IMG/VR virus record: IMGVR_UViG_3300005613_000208
Span: 1 to 36,197 of that record
Length of the DNA: 36,197 nt
Direction: 5' to 3' (one strand)
Source: a virus
The position numbers and the translations under genes were made by a program. Below are positions 6,916 to 35,651 of this stretch, piece after piece (position 1 is the stretch's first letter; every line of letters begins with the position of its first letter). The notes beneath the pieces were generated by a model. It was given only the letters and a program-made list of their open reading frames with translations, searched no databases and was not told where the DNA came from.

Positions 6916-7572
6916 CTATACGTTAATCATGAATGTATCTATCCAATTCTCAATTACCTGAATGTGTTCTTTCATGTCTTTTATATCGCGCTCATCCATG
7001 CCACCTATAATGTATAGTGGGTCATACTTTTCCATTTGCTGTGTAAGTTCTTTAAATGCACCTTTAAGATGTATAGCTTTTGCAAATCCTTCAGGTTTTG
7101 GACTACTTAATATTGATCGCTTACCTTGTTCAGCAAGTGCAGTAATCGTTGGCGGATTTTTGCTTTCTACTTGTGCATCAAACTTATCTTCAGGTACGTT
7201 GGCCAGACGAACGGCGGTTAATTGTTGTCGCTCCGATAATCCGGCATCTTCAGCTACTTGGCGTTGTGATAACCTGCCATCGTTAGCGTCGGTAGGTTGA
7301 ATATCAGTTCTCTTGCCACTTGCATCGAACTGTTTAAGCAATTCACCGGCGCGTCTGTATGCCCTGGCCTGTATTCGCTTCGCCAGCTTATACATTGTTT
7401 CGTCGTTAGCTTGCTTCCAGTAAGAAGCAAGGGCAGCCATTTTATCTGACCACTCCTTGCATTCATCAACGTTATTGCATTGCTGTAAAGCTGTTATTGC
7501 ATTGCTGTATATTTGCGGCAATGCGGCTTTATTCGTTTCAATACGTTGTAATATCAATGAACTTTCTTTCAT
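6916..7572 (-). CDS. ParB/KorB-like helix-turn-helix protein
   Basis: This 218-residue protein has an N-terminal helical region (residues 1-75), a basic AYRRAGELLKQ segment near 72, and a clear helix-turn-helix (LSQRQVAEDAGLSERQQL, near residues 100-117). An ALAEQGKR segment and a helical C-terminus follow. The middle resembles the DNA-binding part of ParB/KorB-like and related phage proteins. The full ParB CTPase motif is not seen, so partitioning is not implied. It lies at the head of the early operon just before the replication protein, so a role in replication control or gene regulation is likely. It is joined to its upstream neighbour by an ATGA overlap. Confidence 0.6.
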   Translation of the reverse strand: MKESSLILQRIETNKAALPQIYSNAITALQQCNNVDECKEWSDKMAALASYWKQANDETMYKLAKRIQARAYRRAGELLKQFDASGKRTDIQPTDANDGRLSQRQVAEDAGLSERQQLTAVRLANVPEDKFDAQVESKNPPTITALAEQGKRSILSSPKPEGFAKAIHLKGAFKELTQQMEKYDPLYIIGGMDERDIKDMKEHIQVIENWIDTFMINV

Positions 7573-8312: not shown

Positions 8313-8510
8313 TCATTGCAAAATATATTTAGCTACCCTCTTTCCGGTATGCGTTTCTATAATTTCGGTTTTTATCTTTAATCCCTGATCGCGTAGGTTT
8401 GCGATCCTGGCAGATAAGCGGAAGCAGTCATAACGCGACAATGCCTCTAACGCGGTTATACTTCTGCCTTTTTCAAGATGCTCCTTAATTAATTGATTTT
8501 GTGATTTCAT
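8313..8510 (-). CDS. Winged helix-turn-helix protein, HTH_39-like
   Basis: This 65-residue protein is a single small winged helix. It has NQLIKEHLEKGRSITALEAL, then DCFRLSARIANLRDQG as recognition helix, and a beta wing ending RVAKYIL. This is the pattern of the HTH_39 family often found in phages and prophages. It stands alone between two terminator-like hairpins in the control region, so it is probably a regulator or a DNA-binding accessory. A 7-base perfect inverted repeat (8306-8312 with 8314-8320) overlaps its stop codon. Confidence 0.75.
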   Translation of the reverse strand: MKSQNQLIKEHLEKGRSITALEALSRYDCFRLSARIANLRDQGLKIKTEIIETHTGKRVAKYILQ

Positions 8511-29395: not shown

Positions 29396-30034
29396 TTAAA
29401 AAAATTCTTTCATTCGTTCACGGGTTGTTTCGAGTTTATCGTAGTATGCCCGCAATTCTTCTTCGTTATATTTACTGTCGGCTTTCCCGTTTGTTTTTTC
29501 TTCTTTTACCTGTTTTGCCCATATATCGAATGACCGCTTTGCCACTGATGTATCGGAATAGGCAGGATACACCACTGGCGAGACGTCATAGATGCGGTCG
29601 AACTTGGTGATAGTACGCACCGTCTTACCGTCAAGCTCCTCCCACTTATCGCCACCGGCGGCAATAGTGAACGCAAATGATGACTTCGATACATCGCCGC
29701 GCTTGATAGCTTCGTACACATCCTCGCGGCTTTTTGGCAGTTCCGGTATTCGATAGCGCAAGCCTGTATCGTCTTCATTTACTTCAAGCGTTCCGGCAGA
29801 CCTTCGGCCCAATACCATATTTTCATCATGATTGTATAATGCTACTATATCAGGACTACGCTCTAATGCGTCACGAAATGCGCCTGGTTCGATCACTTCC
29901 GTAAACCAACCCAGCGTATTTGATTCGCTGTTATATACCGCCGCGTAACCTTCCACGCTGCGCGTGTCATCGTCTGCCGCGCGTAATTCTACGGCAAAGG
30001 TTCTGCGTTCAATGTTATTGCTCATTTGTTCCAT
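29396..30034 (-). CDS. Prohead maturation protease, S78 family
   Basis: This 212-residue protein has the U35/S78 herpesvirus-protease-like core: EGYAAVYNSES near residue 28, EVIEPGAFRDALERSPDIVA near 46, the catalytic His in LYNHDENMVLGR near 69, and the catalytic Ser in DVSKSSFAFTI near 118. It cleaves the capsid delta domain during maturation. The start could also be the ATG at 30025 (MSNNIERRTFA), which is more usual for the family. It overlaps the portal gene by 20 bases. The C-terminal tail is Glu/Lys-rich and helical. Confidence 0.92.
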   Translation of the reverse strand: MEQMSNNIERRTFAVELRAADDDTRSVEGYAAVYNSESNTLGWFTEVIEPGAFRDALERSPDIVALYNHDENMVLGRRSAGTLEVNEDDTGLRYRIPELPKSREDVYEAIKRGDVSKSSFAFTIAAGGDKWEELDGKTVRTITKFDRIYDVSPVVYPAYSDTSVAKRSFDIWAKQVKEEKTNGKADSKYNEEELRAYYDKLETTRERMKEFF

Positions 30035-31247
30035 TGTTTACTGGTTCGTCAATTGGTTGGAAATTTAGCGGTCGGTAATATTCGTCACCATCTGTAATAG
30101 GGTTCATGTTTTCCAAGCGGCGTATATCGTTAGGCGATAGCGCACCCACCTGGAATAGTTTGTTGTAATATTCTGCCCGCGCCTCAGTGTCACCGCGTAG
30201 CAGACTATCGAGATTGAATCTTATAAAATATTGATCACGCTCAGACGGCATGAATAGTTTCCTGTTTAGTTCTTGTTCCCAGCGTTTGAGATATGGTCGT
30301 ATAGTAAAGCGGACAAAGTTGATCGAAAGACTTTCAACGTTGTTTAGTGTAGCATCTTCAAGGCTGCCGATCATTGACGGCGGCACATTATACACCCTTG
30401 CGACTTCTTGCGTGTAGTACTTGCGTAGTTCCAATAGGTTAGCATCTTGTGCCGTGCCGCTTATCGGTGTGTATTTCATCCCATATTCTAATAATGCAGT
30501 GCGCCCGCTATTCGCTGAACCTTCGTAATTCTTGCGCCAGGATGACTTCAGTTTATCGCGTACTTCGTTAGGTAGTTCACCATCGTATTGAATGATCCCG
30601 GAAAGCATTGCACCGTTACCAAGATAGTTCGCGCCGAACTCTGATGCGGCTAATGATTCAGCAAGTATCTCGCGCGCTACGTTCAGCATATCAGATCCGG
30701 CAACGCCATTGAATGACATAACCGGGATAGCTATCATTTCGGTAAGCGTGTACGTCTTATTTTCATCTTTAATGCGGTAGTACGGTTCATTTTCACCTTT
30801 AGGAACAATGACCTCTACACTTCCGCTTGGTACGAATCTTAGCTCTGTAATTTCCCCGAACCCATTGCGTAATATTTTGGCGTAGGCTGTACCATGCGCC
30901 AAAGCGTGAAGTTGCATCGTTTCGCGCCATGTAAAAGATGTATATAAAGGTGATGGTTCTTTGCCTAATAGATATGTCAACGGGTGATCCGTAGCCTTGA
31001 CAACGTTATCGCCGTCACGCCGCATGACTTCAAGCGATAAGCTGCCAACCGTTTCGGATATGATACGCCAGCAAGCCCACATAGCACCGACCGTCATAGC
31101 CGTTTCCAGCGTTACCATCTGACCGTTACGGCCCTTATTACCGAACATATTGGAAAGCCATTGTGCAGGGTTGCGCAATGACGTAGACGGGTTCTCTAAG
31201 GAACCACTTCGCTTAAATATAGAAGTTAAAGGTGTGAACCAGCCCAT
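30015..31247 (-). CDS. Portal protein, HK97 type
   Basis: This 410-residue protein has the standard portal marks: GAMWACWRIISETVGSLSLE near residue 50, the DHPLTYLLGKEPSPLYTSF region near 82, SFTWRETMQLHALAHGTAYA, SEFGANYLGNGAMLSGIIQY near 192, and RVYNVPPSMIGSLEDATLNN near 285. It forms the dodecameric DNA channel. The ATG at 31247 (MGWFTPLTSIFKR) is chosen over an upstream TTG at 31295. It is separated from terL by a 1.4-kb block of small genes on both strands, unlike the usual direct terL-portal junction. Confidence 0.94.
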   Translation of the reverse strand: MGWFTPLTSIFKRSGSLENPSTSLRNPAQWLSNMFGNKGRNGQMVTLETAMTVGAMWACWRIISETVGSLSLEVMRRDGDNVVKATDHPLTYLLGKEPSPLYTSFTWRETMQLHALAHGTAYAKILRNGFGEITELRFVPSGSVEVIVPKGENEPYYRIKDENKTYTLTEMIAIPVMSFNGVAGSDMLNVAREILAESLAASEFGANYLGNGAMLSGIIQYDGELPNEVRDKLKSSWRKNYEGSANSGRTALLEYGMKYTPISGTAQDANLLELRKYYTQEVARVYNVPPSMIGSLEDATLNNVESLSINFVRFTIRPYLKRWEQELNRKLFMPSERDQYFIRFNLDSLLRGDTEARAEYYNKLFQVGALSPNDIRRLENMNPITDGDEYYRPLNFQPIDEPVNNGTNEQ

Positions 31248-31360
31248 ACAACGCGCGTATACGCGCAATGTATGATAAATGCAACGCGGTTGCAATTATT
31301 AAGGTGAAATGAAAGGTGAAAACATATTACATAAATAAAAATGTAAAAATATTTTTAAAA

Positions 31361-31400
31361 ATACTTGCACATTATACTATGTTGTAGTATATTTAAGTAT
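31361..31400 (+). promoter_or_regulatory. Promoter with overlapping operator dyad
   Basis: TTG (31365-31367), 20 bases, then TATATTTA (31388-31395) fits the Bacteroidota promoter TTG-N19-21-TAnnTTTG with one mismatch, 28 bases before the ATG at 31424. Inside the promoter lies a perfect 7-base inverted repeat TATACTA/TAGTATA (31373-31379 with 31385-31391), nested in an outer pair ATACTT/AAGTAT (31361-31366 with 31395-31400). A repressor bound here would block transcription. The XRE protein of the same operon is the obvious candidate. Confidence 0.65.
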
Positions 31401-31423
31401 TGAAAGAAACAAAAACAATCACA

Positions 31424-31663
31424 ATGAAAGTCTTAAGAAATAATAAAGAAGGTTGGAAAGATCAACTAAAAGACTACTACGAGTCTAACATTGAAAAAAC
31501 AATGCTTTGTTATGAAGTGTATTATCACGACAAAGATGAAAATAAAGAAAAAGTCACAACAGTTAGAGCGCACAGTATTCAAAGTGCAGAAGGTGTAGCA
31601 AGATTAGAGCTTAAAATAGCTAGTGTTAATTTCAATAAGTACGACTTAACCGTAATGGCATAA
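31424..31663 (+). CDS. Small hypothetical protein, plus-strand cassette
   Basis: This 79-residue protein starts at the ATG at 31424 (MKVLRNNKEGWKDQLKDYYE). An upstream in-frame TTG at 31400 lies within the operator and is unlikely. The middle has a strand pattern (TMLCYEVYYHDKDENKEKVT) and the end KIASVNFNKYDLTVMA. It is not recognised. It is the first gene of a plus-strand cassette, A/T-richer than the surrounding late genes, that opposes the late operon. Confidence 0.55.
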   Translation: MKVLRNNKEGWKDQLKDYYESNIEKTMLCYEVYYHDKDENKEKVTTVRAHSIQSAEGVARLELKIASVNFNKYDLTVMA

Positions 31664-31698
31664 TGAAAAACCTATCCTAAACAATAAAAACAGCAATC

Positions 31699-31887
31699 AT
31701 GATAACTTATCAAATCACAAACATCGACAAATTTACAGATGTGGACGTTTATGGGCTTAGTTTTTATAATGGCTCATTTCACGGCACAATTTCAATTGGA
31801 ACAAATGACGGCTGGAAAGACATAACTGGAGAGCATGGCTCATCGGATTACGACGATGAGTATGGATTTGTAATTATTTTAGAATGA
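31699..31887 (+). CDS. Small acidic hypothetical protein
   Basis: This 62-residue protein starts MITYQITNIDKFTDVDVYGL and is acidic, with GWKDITGEHGSSDYDDEYGF near its end. It resembles a small beta sandwich by pattern only. It is coupled to the XRE gene by an ATGA overlap. Such acidic partners before an XRE gene can be antitoxin- or Ocr-like, but no real evidence is seen. Confidence 0.5.
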   Translation: MITYQITNIDKFTDVDVYGLSFYNGSFHGTISIGTNDGWKDITGEHGSSDYDDEYGFVIILE

Positions 31888-32075
31888 GGGATGCAATTAA
31901 AACCGCCAGACTTCACCGAGGATTGACTCAGGTGCAGCTTGCGCGCTTAATGAATGTCGGTCAATCCCGCGTATCTGAGTGGGAAAACGGAACGCATATA
32001 CCTACAAGCGAAACGATACAGCGTATGGAAGATGTGCTTAACGTTTCTTTTGTTGTTTCGTTTGTTGAGTTGTAA
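31884..32075 (+). CDS. XRE-family helix-turn-helix regulator
   Basis: This 63-residue protein is a bare Cro/C1-type HTH: AIKTARLHRGLTQVQLARLM (helices 1-2), NVGQSRVSEWENGTHIPTSE (recognition helix and loop) and IQRMEDVLNVSFV (helices 4-5). It lacks the dimerisation or peptidase domain of large C1 repressors, so it is Cro-like. It likely represses its own promoter at 31361-31400. Its last 38 bases overlap, antisense, the end of the convergent 58-residue gene. Confidence 0.85.
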   Translation: MRDAIKTARLHRGLTQVQLARLMNVGQSRVSEWENGTHIPTSETIQRMEDVLNVSFVVSFVEL

Positions 32076-32214
32076 AGCTATTGTAATTACTATACGCCCT
32101 GCGCCCGTTCCGCTTCTTATACGCCTTTTCGGCTATCTCGTAGCTTTCACGACACGAACGGCCAGTTCGGCGGACCAGTAAGTAAAGGCGGTAAAAGTCG
32201 CTAAAGCGGCTCAT
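32038..32214 (-). CDS. Small basic hypothetical protein
   Basis: This 58-residue frame reads MSRFSDFYRLYLLVRRTGRS then CRESYEIAEKAYKKRNGRR. It is helical and very basic. Its ATG overlaps the TGA of the gene at 32211-32417 (ATGA), which supports translation. The 3' end overlaps the XRE gene on the other strand by 38 bases. It could bind nucleic acid. The family is unknown. Confidence 0.55.
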   Translation of the reverse strand: MSRFSDFYRLYLLVRRTGRSCRESYEIAEKAYKKRNGRRAYSNYNSFTTQQTKQQKKR

Positions 32215-32417
32215 ATAGTTTCAGATAGCATTTTTTCTATATTATACCTTCTGTCTTGCAGGCTTATGAGAAGTTGTTCTGCTTGCTTTTTTGGACGGGC
32301 ATATCCATACACTTCCGCTAAATCTTCATCTATCCAATACCTGTTTATGCAAATATTAAGGCTGCTTAACTCTTTTTTCAACTCACGCCTATCTTTTCCT
32401 GATATTTTATATCTCAT
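32211..32417 (-). CDS. Small hypothetical protein
   Basis: This 68-residue charged helical protein starts MRYKISGKDRRELKKELSSL and has KKQAEQLLISLQDRRYNIEK near its end. Two helices may form a hairpin. It lies in a run of three small genes between terL and the cassette, one base after the preceding stop. It is not recognised. Confidence 0.5.
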   Translation of the reverse strand: MRYKISGKDRRELKKELSSLNICINRYWIDEDLAEVYGYARPKKQAEQLLISLQDRRYNIEKMLSETI

Positions 32418-32418
32418 G

Positions 32419-32652
32419 TCATAAAAATTTATCGCTTCTGTTTAAGGCTCTGATAAATTGCTGTAGGTTTATTTCATTTTCTGGAAGTGTAGCATATATT
32501 GAGACCCAAGCTTCGCCCATTGAAGTTATGCTATACCTGTATTCAACATGGAATTTAGCAACTCCATTTAAATCGGTTAACAGTTTTAAACGATAATTAT
32601 TTTTATCGTTAATTTGATTGCTGTAATAATTAAACTTTTCTATTACTTCCAT
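32419..32652 (-). CDS. Small hypothetical protein
   Basis: This 77-residue protein starts MEVIEKFNYYSNQINDKNNY. A beta-rich middle (FHVEYRYSITSMGEAWVSIY) is followed by a short C-terminal helix (QQFIRALNRSDKFL). Its start lies one base after the terL stop. The role is unknown. Confidence 0.5.
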   Translation of the reverse strand: MEVIEKFNYYSNQINDKNNYRLKLLTDLNGVAKFHVEYRYSITSMGEAWVSIYATLPENEINLQQFIRALNRSDKFL

Positions 32653-32653
32653 A

Positions 32654-34234
32654 TCATAAAAATATTATATCCCTGTCCTCGTATGGTTTCGGTTTCACCT
32701 CGCTATTGGCTTCGTCGTACATCCAAGCGCACATACCATTTAATGCCGCTACAATGCCGTCAATCTTGCCAGTGCTTTTCTGCTTGTGCACCCATTTATT
32801 ATTTTCGCGATCTTCGTACAATTGCACGTTACCGACTTGCCATCGCAATACTGGATTTCCTGCATGGTTTAACGTCTTGTTCATGACCATCTTTTGCAGG
32901 CGTTCAATAACTACGTTGAATGTCACCGGCCCTTGGCGGAATGCCCAGCACGTTACGCCCTTGCTTTCTAAATTGCGTATAGCTTCATCAGATCGGTACT
33001 TATCATATCCAAGCCCGTAGAAATTATGGCCTTCAATCAGCTCCAATATATCATCAGAAAGTTCTAATAGGTCGATAGCGTCGTACATCTGCGTAAATAC
33101 TATATCGTCCTCAGTCCATTGCAAGAATTGCGTATGCTCACGCTTTGCCCGGTCGATGACGGTCTTTTCAGGTATCCAGAAGTACGGCACGATATGCAAC
33201 AGCGGATCTTCATCGGTTGGCGGGAATACCATGACAAAAGCGTTCATGTCATCGTTATACGCTAAGTCCAGGCCGCCGAAGCAGGGCCGACCTTTCAGTT
33301 CGTCTATGTCAATCGGCTTTATGTCGCAGTCATCCCATATATCTGCAACGTGCCAGGATTGTGTCGTGCTTGTCCAGATATTGAGGTGAAGCCGCTTAAA
33401 CGTGTTTACCTTGCTTGGATCATTCTTAATTTCCTGTATTTCATTTTCAAAGTATTGCACGGGTAACGCGGTGCCAAGTGAGGGGTTTGCCTTATACCAT
33501 GTATCGGAGTCGTATATGTCATCTTTTTCGTCTGCGCCGTATATCTTAACATACCAACGTTCGTCCTGGATTACGCCGTTCATTACGTCCTTAGCGTACT
33601 TGTGCAATTCATGCCCAAATGTTTCCACCACTTGCGCTGTAGTAATCATCCACAACATAGGCTGCTGACGTGCTGCGATACCTTTACGCAACGTGTCGTA
33701 TAAATCTGCATTTTTCTGTACGGCTATTTCATCAAATGCGATAGCGTGTAAGTTAGGGCCGTGTTTGGTGTATGCTTCTGCCGAAACAACTTTGTACCAA
33801 GATCCTGATGCCGGATGTGTTATGCTGTATTTGTAGACGTCCAGTTCTGAGGATAGCTCTGGTGACATCTGCACCATTTCAGAAGCGTTTTCAAATACTA
33901 TGCGAGCTTGTTCACGGTCGGCAGCGGCTCCGTATATTTCCGCGCCAGGTTCGTCATCCCATCCAAGTAGGTATAGCGATATAGGCGCAAGCATTGTAGA
34001 CTTGCCGTTTTTCTTAGGCACTTCAACGTAAACATATTGATACCTGCGAAAGCCGGTAGCAGTGTACTTCCATCCGAAAGTTTGGCTTATAATATCCTTT
34101 TGCCATTCTTCCAGCTTGATTAGTTCACCCCGCAGCGGCCCCTTCACATGACGGCAGTATCTTTCGATGAACTTTACGACACGTTCGCCAGCGTCTGGAT
34201 CAAAGTAGTATTTATCGTTTTTCGCTTTGCTCAT
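32654..34234 (-). CDS. terL: Terminase large subunit
   Basis: This 526-residue protein is a Terminase_1-type packaging motor. The ATPase part has the adenine-binding EEWQKDIISQTFGWKY near residue 42, Walker A VPKKNGKST near 72, and Walker B HAIAFDEIAVQ near 162 followed by the coupling ITTAQ. The nuclease part has GGLDLAYNDDMNAF near 310 (first catalytic Asp), the GYDKYRSDEAIRNLESKG segment near 399, and KIDGIVAALNGMCAWM near 487 (last Asp). It cuts and pumps DNA into the prohead with TerS. All expected motifs are present. Confidence 0.95.
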   Translation of the reverse strand: MSKAKNDKYYFDPDAGERVVKFIERYCRHVKGPLRGELIKLEEWQKDIISQTFGWKYTATGFRRYQYVYVEVPKKNGKSTMLAPISLYLLGWDDEPGAEIYGAAADREQARIVFENASEMVQMSPELSSELDVYKYSITHPASGSWYKVVSAEAYTKHGPNLHAIAFDEIAVQKNADLYDTLRKGIAARQQPMLWMITTAQVVETFGHELHKYAKDVMNGVIQDERWYVKIYGADEKDDIYDSDTWYKANPSLGTALPVQYFENEIQEIKNDPSKVNTFKRLHLNIWTSTTQSWHVADIWDDCDIKPIDIDELKGRPCFGGLDLAYNDDMNAFVMVFPPTDEDPLLHIVPYFWIPEKTVIDRAKREHTQFLQWTEDDIVFTQMYDAIDLLELSDDILELIEGHNFYGLGYDKYRSDEAIRNLESKGVTCWAFRQGPVTFNVVIERLQKMVMNKTLNHAGNPVLRWQVGNVQLYEDRENNKWVHKQKSTGKIDGIVAALNGMCAWMYDEANSEVKPKPYEDRDIIFL

Positions 34235-34422: not shown

Positions 34423-34644
34423 TTATTCCTTTGGTGGTTTAGGTAATGGCATCCAGTGGGTAACTTCTAATATTTCACATTCGTAGGTATCTAAAAATTT
34501 ATTGCGGCTGTAATTGTAATAACCTAATGAAATTTTATCGTATACATTTAACAATAGTACATCTTCGGAAAAAAATGAAGTTGGAAGCATCTTAGTCGTA
34601 TTTGATATTTCAGGCAGCCGATCCTTTACGCTTATCCATTTCAT
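34423..34644 (-). CDS. DUF551 protein, copy 2
   Basis: This 73-residue protein opens MKWISVKDRLPE and ends VTHWMPLPKPPKE, the two signature ends of DUF551, a family widespread in phages with unknown function. The middle has VLLLNVYDKISLGYYNYSRN. It follows a second DUF551 gene by three bases, and the two are probably a tandem duplication that has diverged in the middle. Confidence 0.85.
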   Translation of the reverse strand: MKWISVKDRLPEISNTTKMLPTSFFSEDVLLLNVYDKISLGYYNYSRNKFLDTYECEILEVTHWMPLPKPPKE

Positions 34645-34647
34645 AAG

Positions 34648-34839
34648 TTATTCTTTAGGCGGTTCAGGTAACGGCATCCAGTGGCTTATATCTGTAAACT
34701 TATACACATATTCGCGCGCCATTACAAATTCTGAATTTATTCTATCAGTTCGGCACACTAAATAATACCCTTCATAATTGACACAGAGAACGCTTTGTCC
34801 GTGTATTGGTTTCGATTTTTCTACACTTATCCATTTCAT
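34648..34839 (-). CDS. DUF551 protein, copy 1
   Basis: This 63-residue protein opens MKWISVEKSKPIHGQSVLCV and ends ISHWMPLPEPPKE, the DUF551 signature. It is shorter than its neighbour by ten residues in the middle. Its ATG overlaps the TGA of the glycosyltransferase-like gene. The function is unknown. Confidence 0.85.
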   Translation of the reverse strand: MKWISVEKSKPIHGQSVLCVNYEGYYLVCRTDRINSEFVMAREYVYKFTDISHWMPLPEPPKE

Positions 34840-35651
34840 AAACCAAATTTTTGTCTTACATCGTCCGCGGCCTTGCCGTCCAGGATTACGCCGGGTAACT
34901 TGTCGAACTTATTGATATTGTCCTCAGTCTTAATATCAAGGCAAAATAAATCGTCTTGGTCAATTGCCACCTGTACCCAGGTCATGGAAGGCCCATACCC
35001 TTTCATGATCCGCATAAATGATGCCGCGTCCATAGCGTTATTTTTTTCCGGTGGCCATAGTTCAATAATTGTGTCAATCATTTCGTAGTTGACTTCTTTA
35101 AATTGCCATCGCGGAATAGTCTTAATCTGCCCGCGTCGATCGCCTGCCGTGTTTGTAAACTTGCATTTAACAGTATAACGATATGCGCCGGCCTCAACGT
35201 ATTTGCGAAGTAGCAAACGACCTGCGCCGTAAACCATGGGAGTAGGCCCAACTAACTTAACGCGGCCCGTATTTAGGTCGTAGCATAATAAACGCTGCAT
35301 ACCTATAATCATTTTGCGTTCCTTGATGTGTGGAATAACTTTATCCCAATATTCCGGCAAAATAATGTCATCAGCACCGAAGCCCATAAAGTAATCCCAA
35401 TCCTTTGACATAGCCAACGGTAAGCCAGCATTTAACTTGCGCCCTAATGGCAGGTTCTCGCTATACACATACGGCGCGTTAGGTAGATACTTTTCAGCGG
35501 TTGCGCGGTCATCGGATTCGCTGTAAATGAATAGCGGTTCGCATTCCACACCAAGCTTCCCGGCATATTGCATGAAGCGAACTAAGGCCGGATAGTAAAT
35601 GTCGGATATTTCCTGGCGTTTATGTAGTGCAATGTAAATTAGTACTTTCAA
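34836..35651 (-). CDS. Glycosyltransferase-like protein (GT-A fold)
   Basis: This 271-residue protein has a GT-A look. It opens MKVLIYIALHKRQEISDIYY, continues with LGRKLNAGLPLAMSKDWDYF near residue 68, and then has FMGFGADDIILPEYWDKVIP near 88, where GADD takes the place of the metal-binding DxD. A later KNNAMDAASFMR segment is consistent with acceptor binding. It starts with TTG overlapping the TGA of terS; no ATG lies near. It may add sugar to phage DNA, virion or host surface. Its insertion between terS and terL is unusual. Confidence 0.6.
   Translation of the reverse strand: MKVLIYIALHKRQEISDIYYPALVRFMQYAGKLGVECEPLFIYSESDDRATAEKYLPNAPYVYSENLPLGRKLNAGLPLAMSKDWDYFMGFGADDIILPEYWDKVIPHIKERKMIIGMQRLLCYDLNTGRVKLVGPTPMVYGAGRLLLRKYVEAGAYRYTVKCKFTNTAGDRRGQIKTIPRWQFKEVNYEMIDTIIELWPPEKNNAMDAASFMRIMKGYGPSMTWVQVAIDQDDLFCLDIKTEDNINKFDKLPGVILDGKAADDVRQKFGL

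Follow-up and report, generated by a model that had tools for sequence, protein, structure and literature searches.

The window, by which we mean the whole stretch of DNA analysed, is a 36,197-base virus record whose late genes run leftward in the order terS, terL, small genes, portal, protease and capsid. By sequence, the identities of terL (window 32654-34234, minus strand; PF20441/PF03354) and of the portal gene (30015-31247, minus strand; PF04860, E 1e-100) are certain, and between them lies a run of three plus-strand ORFs (79, 62 and 63 aa) opposed to the late genes. We call these orfA (31424-31663), orfB (31699-31887) and xre (31884-32075). The product of xre is a single-domain HTH_3 protein (PF01381, E 3e-17; 62.8 bits against a curated cut-off of 23) that matches the transcriptional regulators in PHROGs and is a putative autorepressor, in agreement with the preliminary description of three plus-strand genes with an XRE regulator running against late transcription. 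The orfB stop codon overlaps the xre start (ATGA), and the 3′ end of xre overlaps, tail to tail and by 38 nt, a late-strand gene for a basic protein of 58 aa (32038-32214, minus strand). The cassette had been assigned to 31361-32214, and while it does lie there, we place its end at 32075, since 32214 is the start of the 58-aa gene. No terminator could be identified downstream of xre in the window. The portal gene forms the left border of the slot in which the cassette sits and the 58-aa gene its right border. The terL-portal interval holds three small late-strand genes besides the cassette, namely the 58-aa gene and two that encode 68 and 77 aa (32211-32652, minus strand). GC content is 32% in orfA and 36% in orfB against 46% in portal/terL; xre, however, reaches 45%, and AT-richness is shared by other small late genes.

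Coding potential was scored from codon usage in 14 securely identified genes of the same phage, with 53 non-coding open stretches serving as the null. Against a null maximum of 0.118, orfA scores 0.30 and orfB 0.34, and the strands opposite the two are not coding by this score. The xre gene scores 0.10 and is, judged by its HTH_3 domain, certain to be genuine. Adenines stand at -3, -6 and -12 relative to the orfA start (compare PMC6847099). Two other ORFs were rejected: a longer orfA with a TTG start at 31400, which coincides with the predicted transcription start, and a 75-aa plus-strand ORF (31954-32181) with a negative codon score. The orfA protein (pI 6.7) has no match in PHROGs, Pfam, PADLOC, NCBIfam, phages, plasmids or viral contigs. 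The orfB protein is strongly acidic (pI 4.05, charge -9.3) and has no meaningful family E-value in PHROGs, Pfam, PADLOC or NCBIfam, the best match being to PHROG 9025 at a chance-level E of 0.26; it has no relatives of value in phage records, and none in viral contigs when XRE was used as a joint query. AlphaFold gave poor models for both proteins, with mean pLDDT values of 50 (orfA) and 62 (orfB). The two genes had been listed as unknown from the start, and we regard them as new orphan genes whose function we can only infer.

A candidate core promoter upstream of orfA (31365-31395, plus strand) consists of TTG (31365-31367), a 20-nt spacer and TATATTTA (31388-31395). The same promoter appears at the same place in two close relatives, L003 and L004, which supports the earlier proposal that the cassette is driven by a promoter of its own. 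It resembles the Bacteroidota -33/-7 type, with its TTTG/TAnnTTTG consensus (PMC6847099), better than a sigma-70 promoter. The final G usual in the -7 box is missing from TATATTTA, and a scan for sigma-70 promoters returned no more matches than chance. From the published spacing, transcription is predicted to start near 31400, giving a leader of 24 nt. The fit of this promoter to a Bacteroidota sigma factor, together with a helicase-methyltransferase protein that shares 54% identity with a protein of Flavobacterium columnare phages, leads us to infer that the host is a member of the Bacteroidota.

Filling the promoter spacer and overlapping the -7 box is a perfect 7-bp dyad, TATACTA-TGTTG-TAGTATA (31373-31391), which is the putative XRE operator and corresponds to the operator dyad that had been reported to overlap the spacer. 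Allowing up to two mismatches, no second site of this kind occurs in the window. Dyads with 7-bp arms turned up in 92 of 5000 trials (about 2%) with a 31-nt piece of like composition and, anywhere in the 176-nt intergenic region, in 405 of 2000 shuffles (20%). Since such dyads are not rare over 176 nt, what counts is the place of this one inside the promoter. Upstream of the core promoter is a conserved A/T-rich stretch, ACATATTACA..AATAAAAATGT.. (31320-31364, plus strand), identical to L003 at 34 of 45 positions and to L004 at 35 of 45, which may serve as a UP-like element or as a second regulatory one. Two copies of a direct repeat, AAGGTGAAA, stand 12 nt apart between the cassette promoter and the portal start (31301-31321). 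L003 and L004 have a different repeat, GTTnACA, with the same 12-nt period at the aligned place; a regulator of the portal promoter may bind at the AAGGTGAAA repeat.

The portals of L003 and L004 are each 75% identical to that of the window, and between themselves they share 91% identity at the DNA level and 99% at the protein level (408 of 411 columns, with the stop counted). Despite these 99% identical portals, the slot genes of L003 and L004 are unrelated to each other. The junction is present whole in L004, where it reads terL, unrelated genes of 90 and 96 aa, the 58-aa gene, an antisense 61-aa gene and portal. The 61-aa gene has the orientation of the window cassette, XRE is absent, and the gene ends in a strong hairpin terminator of its own (CCCGGC..GCCGGG followed by a T-run). 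In L003, which is cut off, the initial 33 codons of a gene different from those of both other copies are present. The promoter, the upstream A/T tract, an A/C-rich leader and the orientation are kept in all three copies, and across them the upstream tract is identical at 34-39 of 45 positions. The 20-nt spacer differs, with 5, 11 and 8 of 20 positions identical in the three comparisons, and the L003 and L004 core promoters offer no dyad better than one with 4-bp arms. The window is the sole copy of the three with a dyad longer than 4 bp and the sole copy known to carry XRE, the L003 gene being cut off. From these three copies, with the L003 gene partial, the dyad seems to go with the repressor. 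This pairing of a core-promoter dyad with the only copy known to carry XRE lends indirect support to the autoregulation proposed for the cassette, and XRE probably does autorepress the cassette promoter.

Exchange extends to the late strand, where the 90- and 96-aa genes of L004 (L004:827-1374) replace the 68- and 77-aa genes of the window (32211-32652), and by sequence the whole terL-portal interval is variable on both strands. The 58-aa protein (pI 10.6, without a known family) is the sole conserved small gene product of this interval, being 66% identical to L004:1371-1547, and an alignment scan with it gave L004 as the one match. A genome scan with the portal alignment returned one distant alphaproteobacterial locus only. 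A wide scan with the capsid alignment gave 80 loci, mostly distant, and the several long terL-portal gaps among them were left uncounted as artefacts, arising where the terL alignment is partial and breaks off near residue 355-377.

Because the relatives keep the promoter but carry other, unrelated genes behind it, the cassette is very probably a moron, and the place where it sits, between the terL and portal genes of an HK97-type phage of Bacteroidota, an exchange slot. The preliminary description had suggested a moron and had looked to relatives for presence or absence of the cassette; L004 has a different single gene with its own terminator and L003 a different first gene, and the case it named as refuting, in which all relatives carry the cassette and lack the operator, is not seen in either. 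Its further statement that the cassette interrupts a normally direct terL-portal junction stands as to location. That the junction is normally direct stands only in part, since in several other phages, as in this lineage, the interval is an accessory region of variable content. Eight annotated phages matched in terL or portal were compared, a non-random set chosen from top hits: the junction is direct in two, holds same-strand genes in three, and has antisense genes just upstream of portal in the remaining three. These last, HK97-type gut phages unrelated to that of the window, are NatCom_18656, with an Abi_2 gene antisense between terL and portal (L098:5169-6104), NatCom_28274, with an antisense 70-aa protein just upstream of portal, and IMGVR 15666929, with two antisense uncharacterised proteins at that place. 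They share with the window cassette the junction and the orientation relative to the head genes, but differ in that the proteins are unrelated, no XRE gene is seen, and the core proteins are about 37-40% identical. By position, slot and orientation recur independently in the Abi_2 gene of NatCom_18656.

Morons of this kind have precedents. In SPP1, three moron genes bracketed by transcription signals lie inside the packaging/head module (PMC6316719). Like SPP1 ORFs 8-10 and the lambdoid morons, the window cassette is a self-contained unit in the packaging/head module that is absent or different in relatives. The window slot differs from both in that the genes change behind a constant promoter and leader, and in that the unit brings its own repressor.

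By architecture, the best fit is to acr-aca operons, which the cassette resembles in layout and to which it is not homologous. Acas are 60-65 aa long, and the inverted repeat of acr-aca operons is always within the core promoter (PMC9410906), as it is here. AcaFinder looks for genes on the same strand with gaps below 250 bp, all proteins below 200 aa and one HTH gene (PMC9765179), and the cassette is a short-gene operon of exactly this form. A further parallel is the acrIF1-aca1 pair, found among the head genes of Pseudomonas phage JBD30; in both, small orphan genes are followed by a last-placed small HTH gene, genes overlap, the promoter contains an inverted repeat, and the operon is located with the head genes. 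The differences are that the cassette is on the opposite strand to the late genes, has a Bacteroidota promoter and is without a known Acr; an anti-CRISPR activity would be hypothetical. XRE gave no alignment to Aca1, and a search of the PDB returned no Aca chain at E <= 1, though the PDB includes Aca1. Without homology to an Aca, the cassette is not classed as acr-aca.

From the gene order, the promoter and operator positions, the conservation of the promoter and the gene exchange in relatives, a model can be drawn for XRE binding, timing, shut-off and function. In the published acr-aca model, the promoter fires on entry and the HTH protein then shuts it off (PMC9410906). Here, host RNA polymerase would read the unrepressed cassette promoter upon DNA entry, antisense to the late genes, and orfA, orfB and XRE would be made in one burst. 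XRE would then dimerise on the spacer dyad, occupying the spacer and the -7 box and turning the unit off. The shut-off is predicted to precede the late phase, which would avoid strong antisense transcription into the 58-aa gene and terL region. As the window has no dyad-like sites elsewhere, the circuit would be self-contained. The orfA and orfB proteins themselves might be early-acting anti-defence or host-takeover factors, an assignment that we hold tentatively and at somewhat less than even odds. For the reading as a whole, an autorepressed early-pulse unit that most likely delivers such proteins, we estimate a probability of roughly 55%.

The functions offered for the cassette before this analysis were anti-defence, toxin-antitoxin and exclusion, and the first of these is now favoured by architecture. 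The main rival is a type II toxin-antitoxin system in which orfB or orfA is the toxin and XRE the autoregulating antitoxin, and which would be maintained for stability, abortive infection or host takeover. Antitoxins of the XRE type control their own operon by way of a dyad in its promoter, and many are encoded by the second gene; the cassette resembles HigBA, PezAT and HipBA in having an XRE autoregulator within the operon it would control and a dyad in the promoter. In NCBIfam, XRE matches HipB/Y4mF-type and related families best, all below their cut-offs; its best PDB matches include PezA and HipB among others, and the ATGA coupling of orfB to xre suits a fixed stoichiometry. However, no toxin family was found in Pfam, NCBIfam, PADLOC or PHROGs, and the candidate partner orfB, very acidic and without arginine, is unlike most RNase toxins. 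The 63-aa XRE is a bare HTH domain, with nothing beyond it to neutralise a toxin, which together with the acidic partner and the lack of toxin homology sets the cassette apart from HigBA, PezAT and HipBA. There are also three genes and not two, and we regard a toxin-antitoxin system as unlikely.

Exclusion is the least likely of the functions offered. As a superinfection immunity or exclusion unit, the cassette would be expressed from a prophage and active in lysogens. Lysogenic conversion morons typically have a promoter that runs against the late genes, and the Abi_2 gene in the same slot of NatCom_18656 points in the same direction. Against this, no tyrosine integrase was found in the record, which may be incomplete, nor among the larger non-structural genes scanned, and orfA and orfB have no hydrophobic segment that could form a transmembrane stretch (best 19-aa mean about 0.5), making this role very unlikely. 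Less probable still is a phage-wide switch, with XRE acting on the late or portal promoter and the small genes as bystanders. In its favour, the cassette promoter and the portal start point away from each other across a shared 176-nt intergenic region. Against it, relatives keep this region and the core genes with other genes in the slot, the genome has a single dyad, and other regulator-like genes lie elsewhere (HTH_39, 8313-8510).

Returning to the early-pulse reading, what is new here is the orphan genes and the persistence of promoter and leader while spacer and genes exchange; otherwise the cassette is of a known kind. A bolder extension, which we consider speculative and on balance doubtful, is that the terL-portal interval is a standing expression socket, in which anti-defence genes are exchanged behind a fixed promoter, tract and leader and the spacer is swapped along with them, each repressor bringing its own operator. 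The orfA and orfB products would then represent new anti-defence families of Bacteroidota phages and XRE a new Aca-like repressor. To our knowledge, few anti-defence genes are known from Bacteroidota phages. If the extension is true, the genes behind the conserved antisense promoter would offer a positional handle on the anti-defence genes of these phages, and the swap of spacer and operator would show, in a simple case, how a repressor can move with its operator into an existing promoter.

Three other places in the window are worth recording. A 218-aa protein (6916-7572) has a weak match to the AbiEi antitoxin C-terminal domain (E 0.002, below the cut-off). Between terS and terL, a 271-aa protein (34836-35651) has a weak match to glycosyltransferase family 2. 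Between this glycosyltransferase-like gene and terL, two adjacent genes (34423-34839) encode small paralogous proteins that share the pattern MKWISV...HWMPLP.PP.E and are PHROG 924-like.
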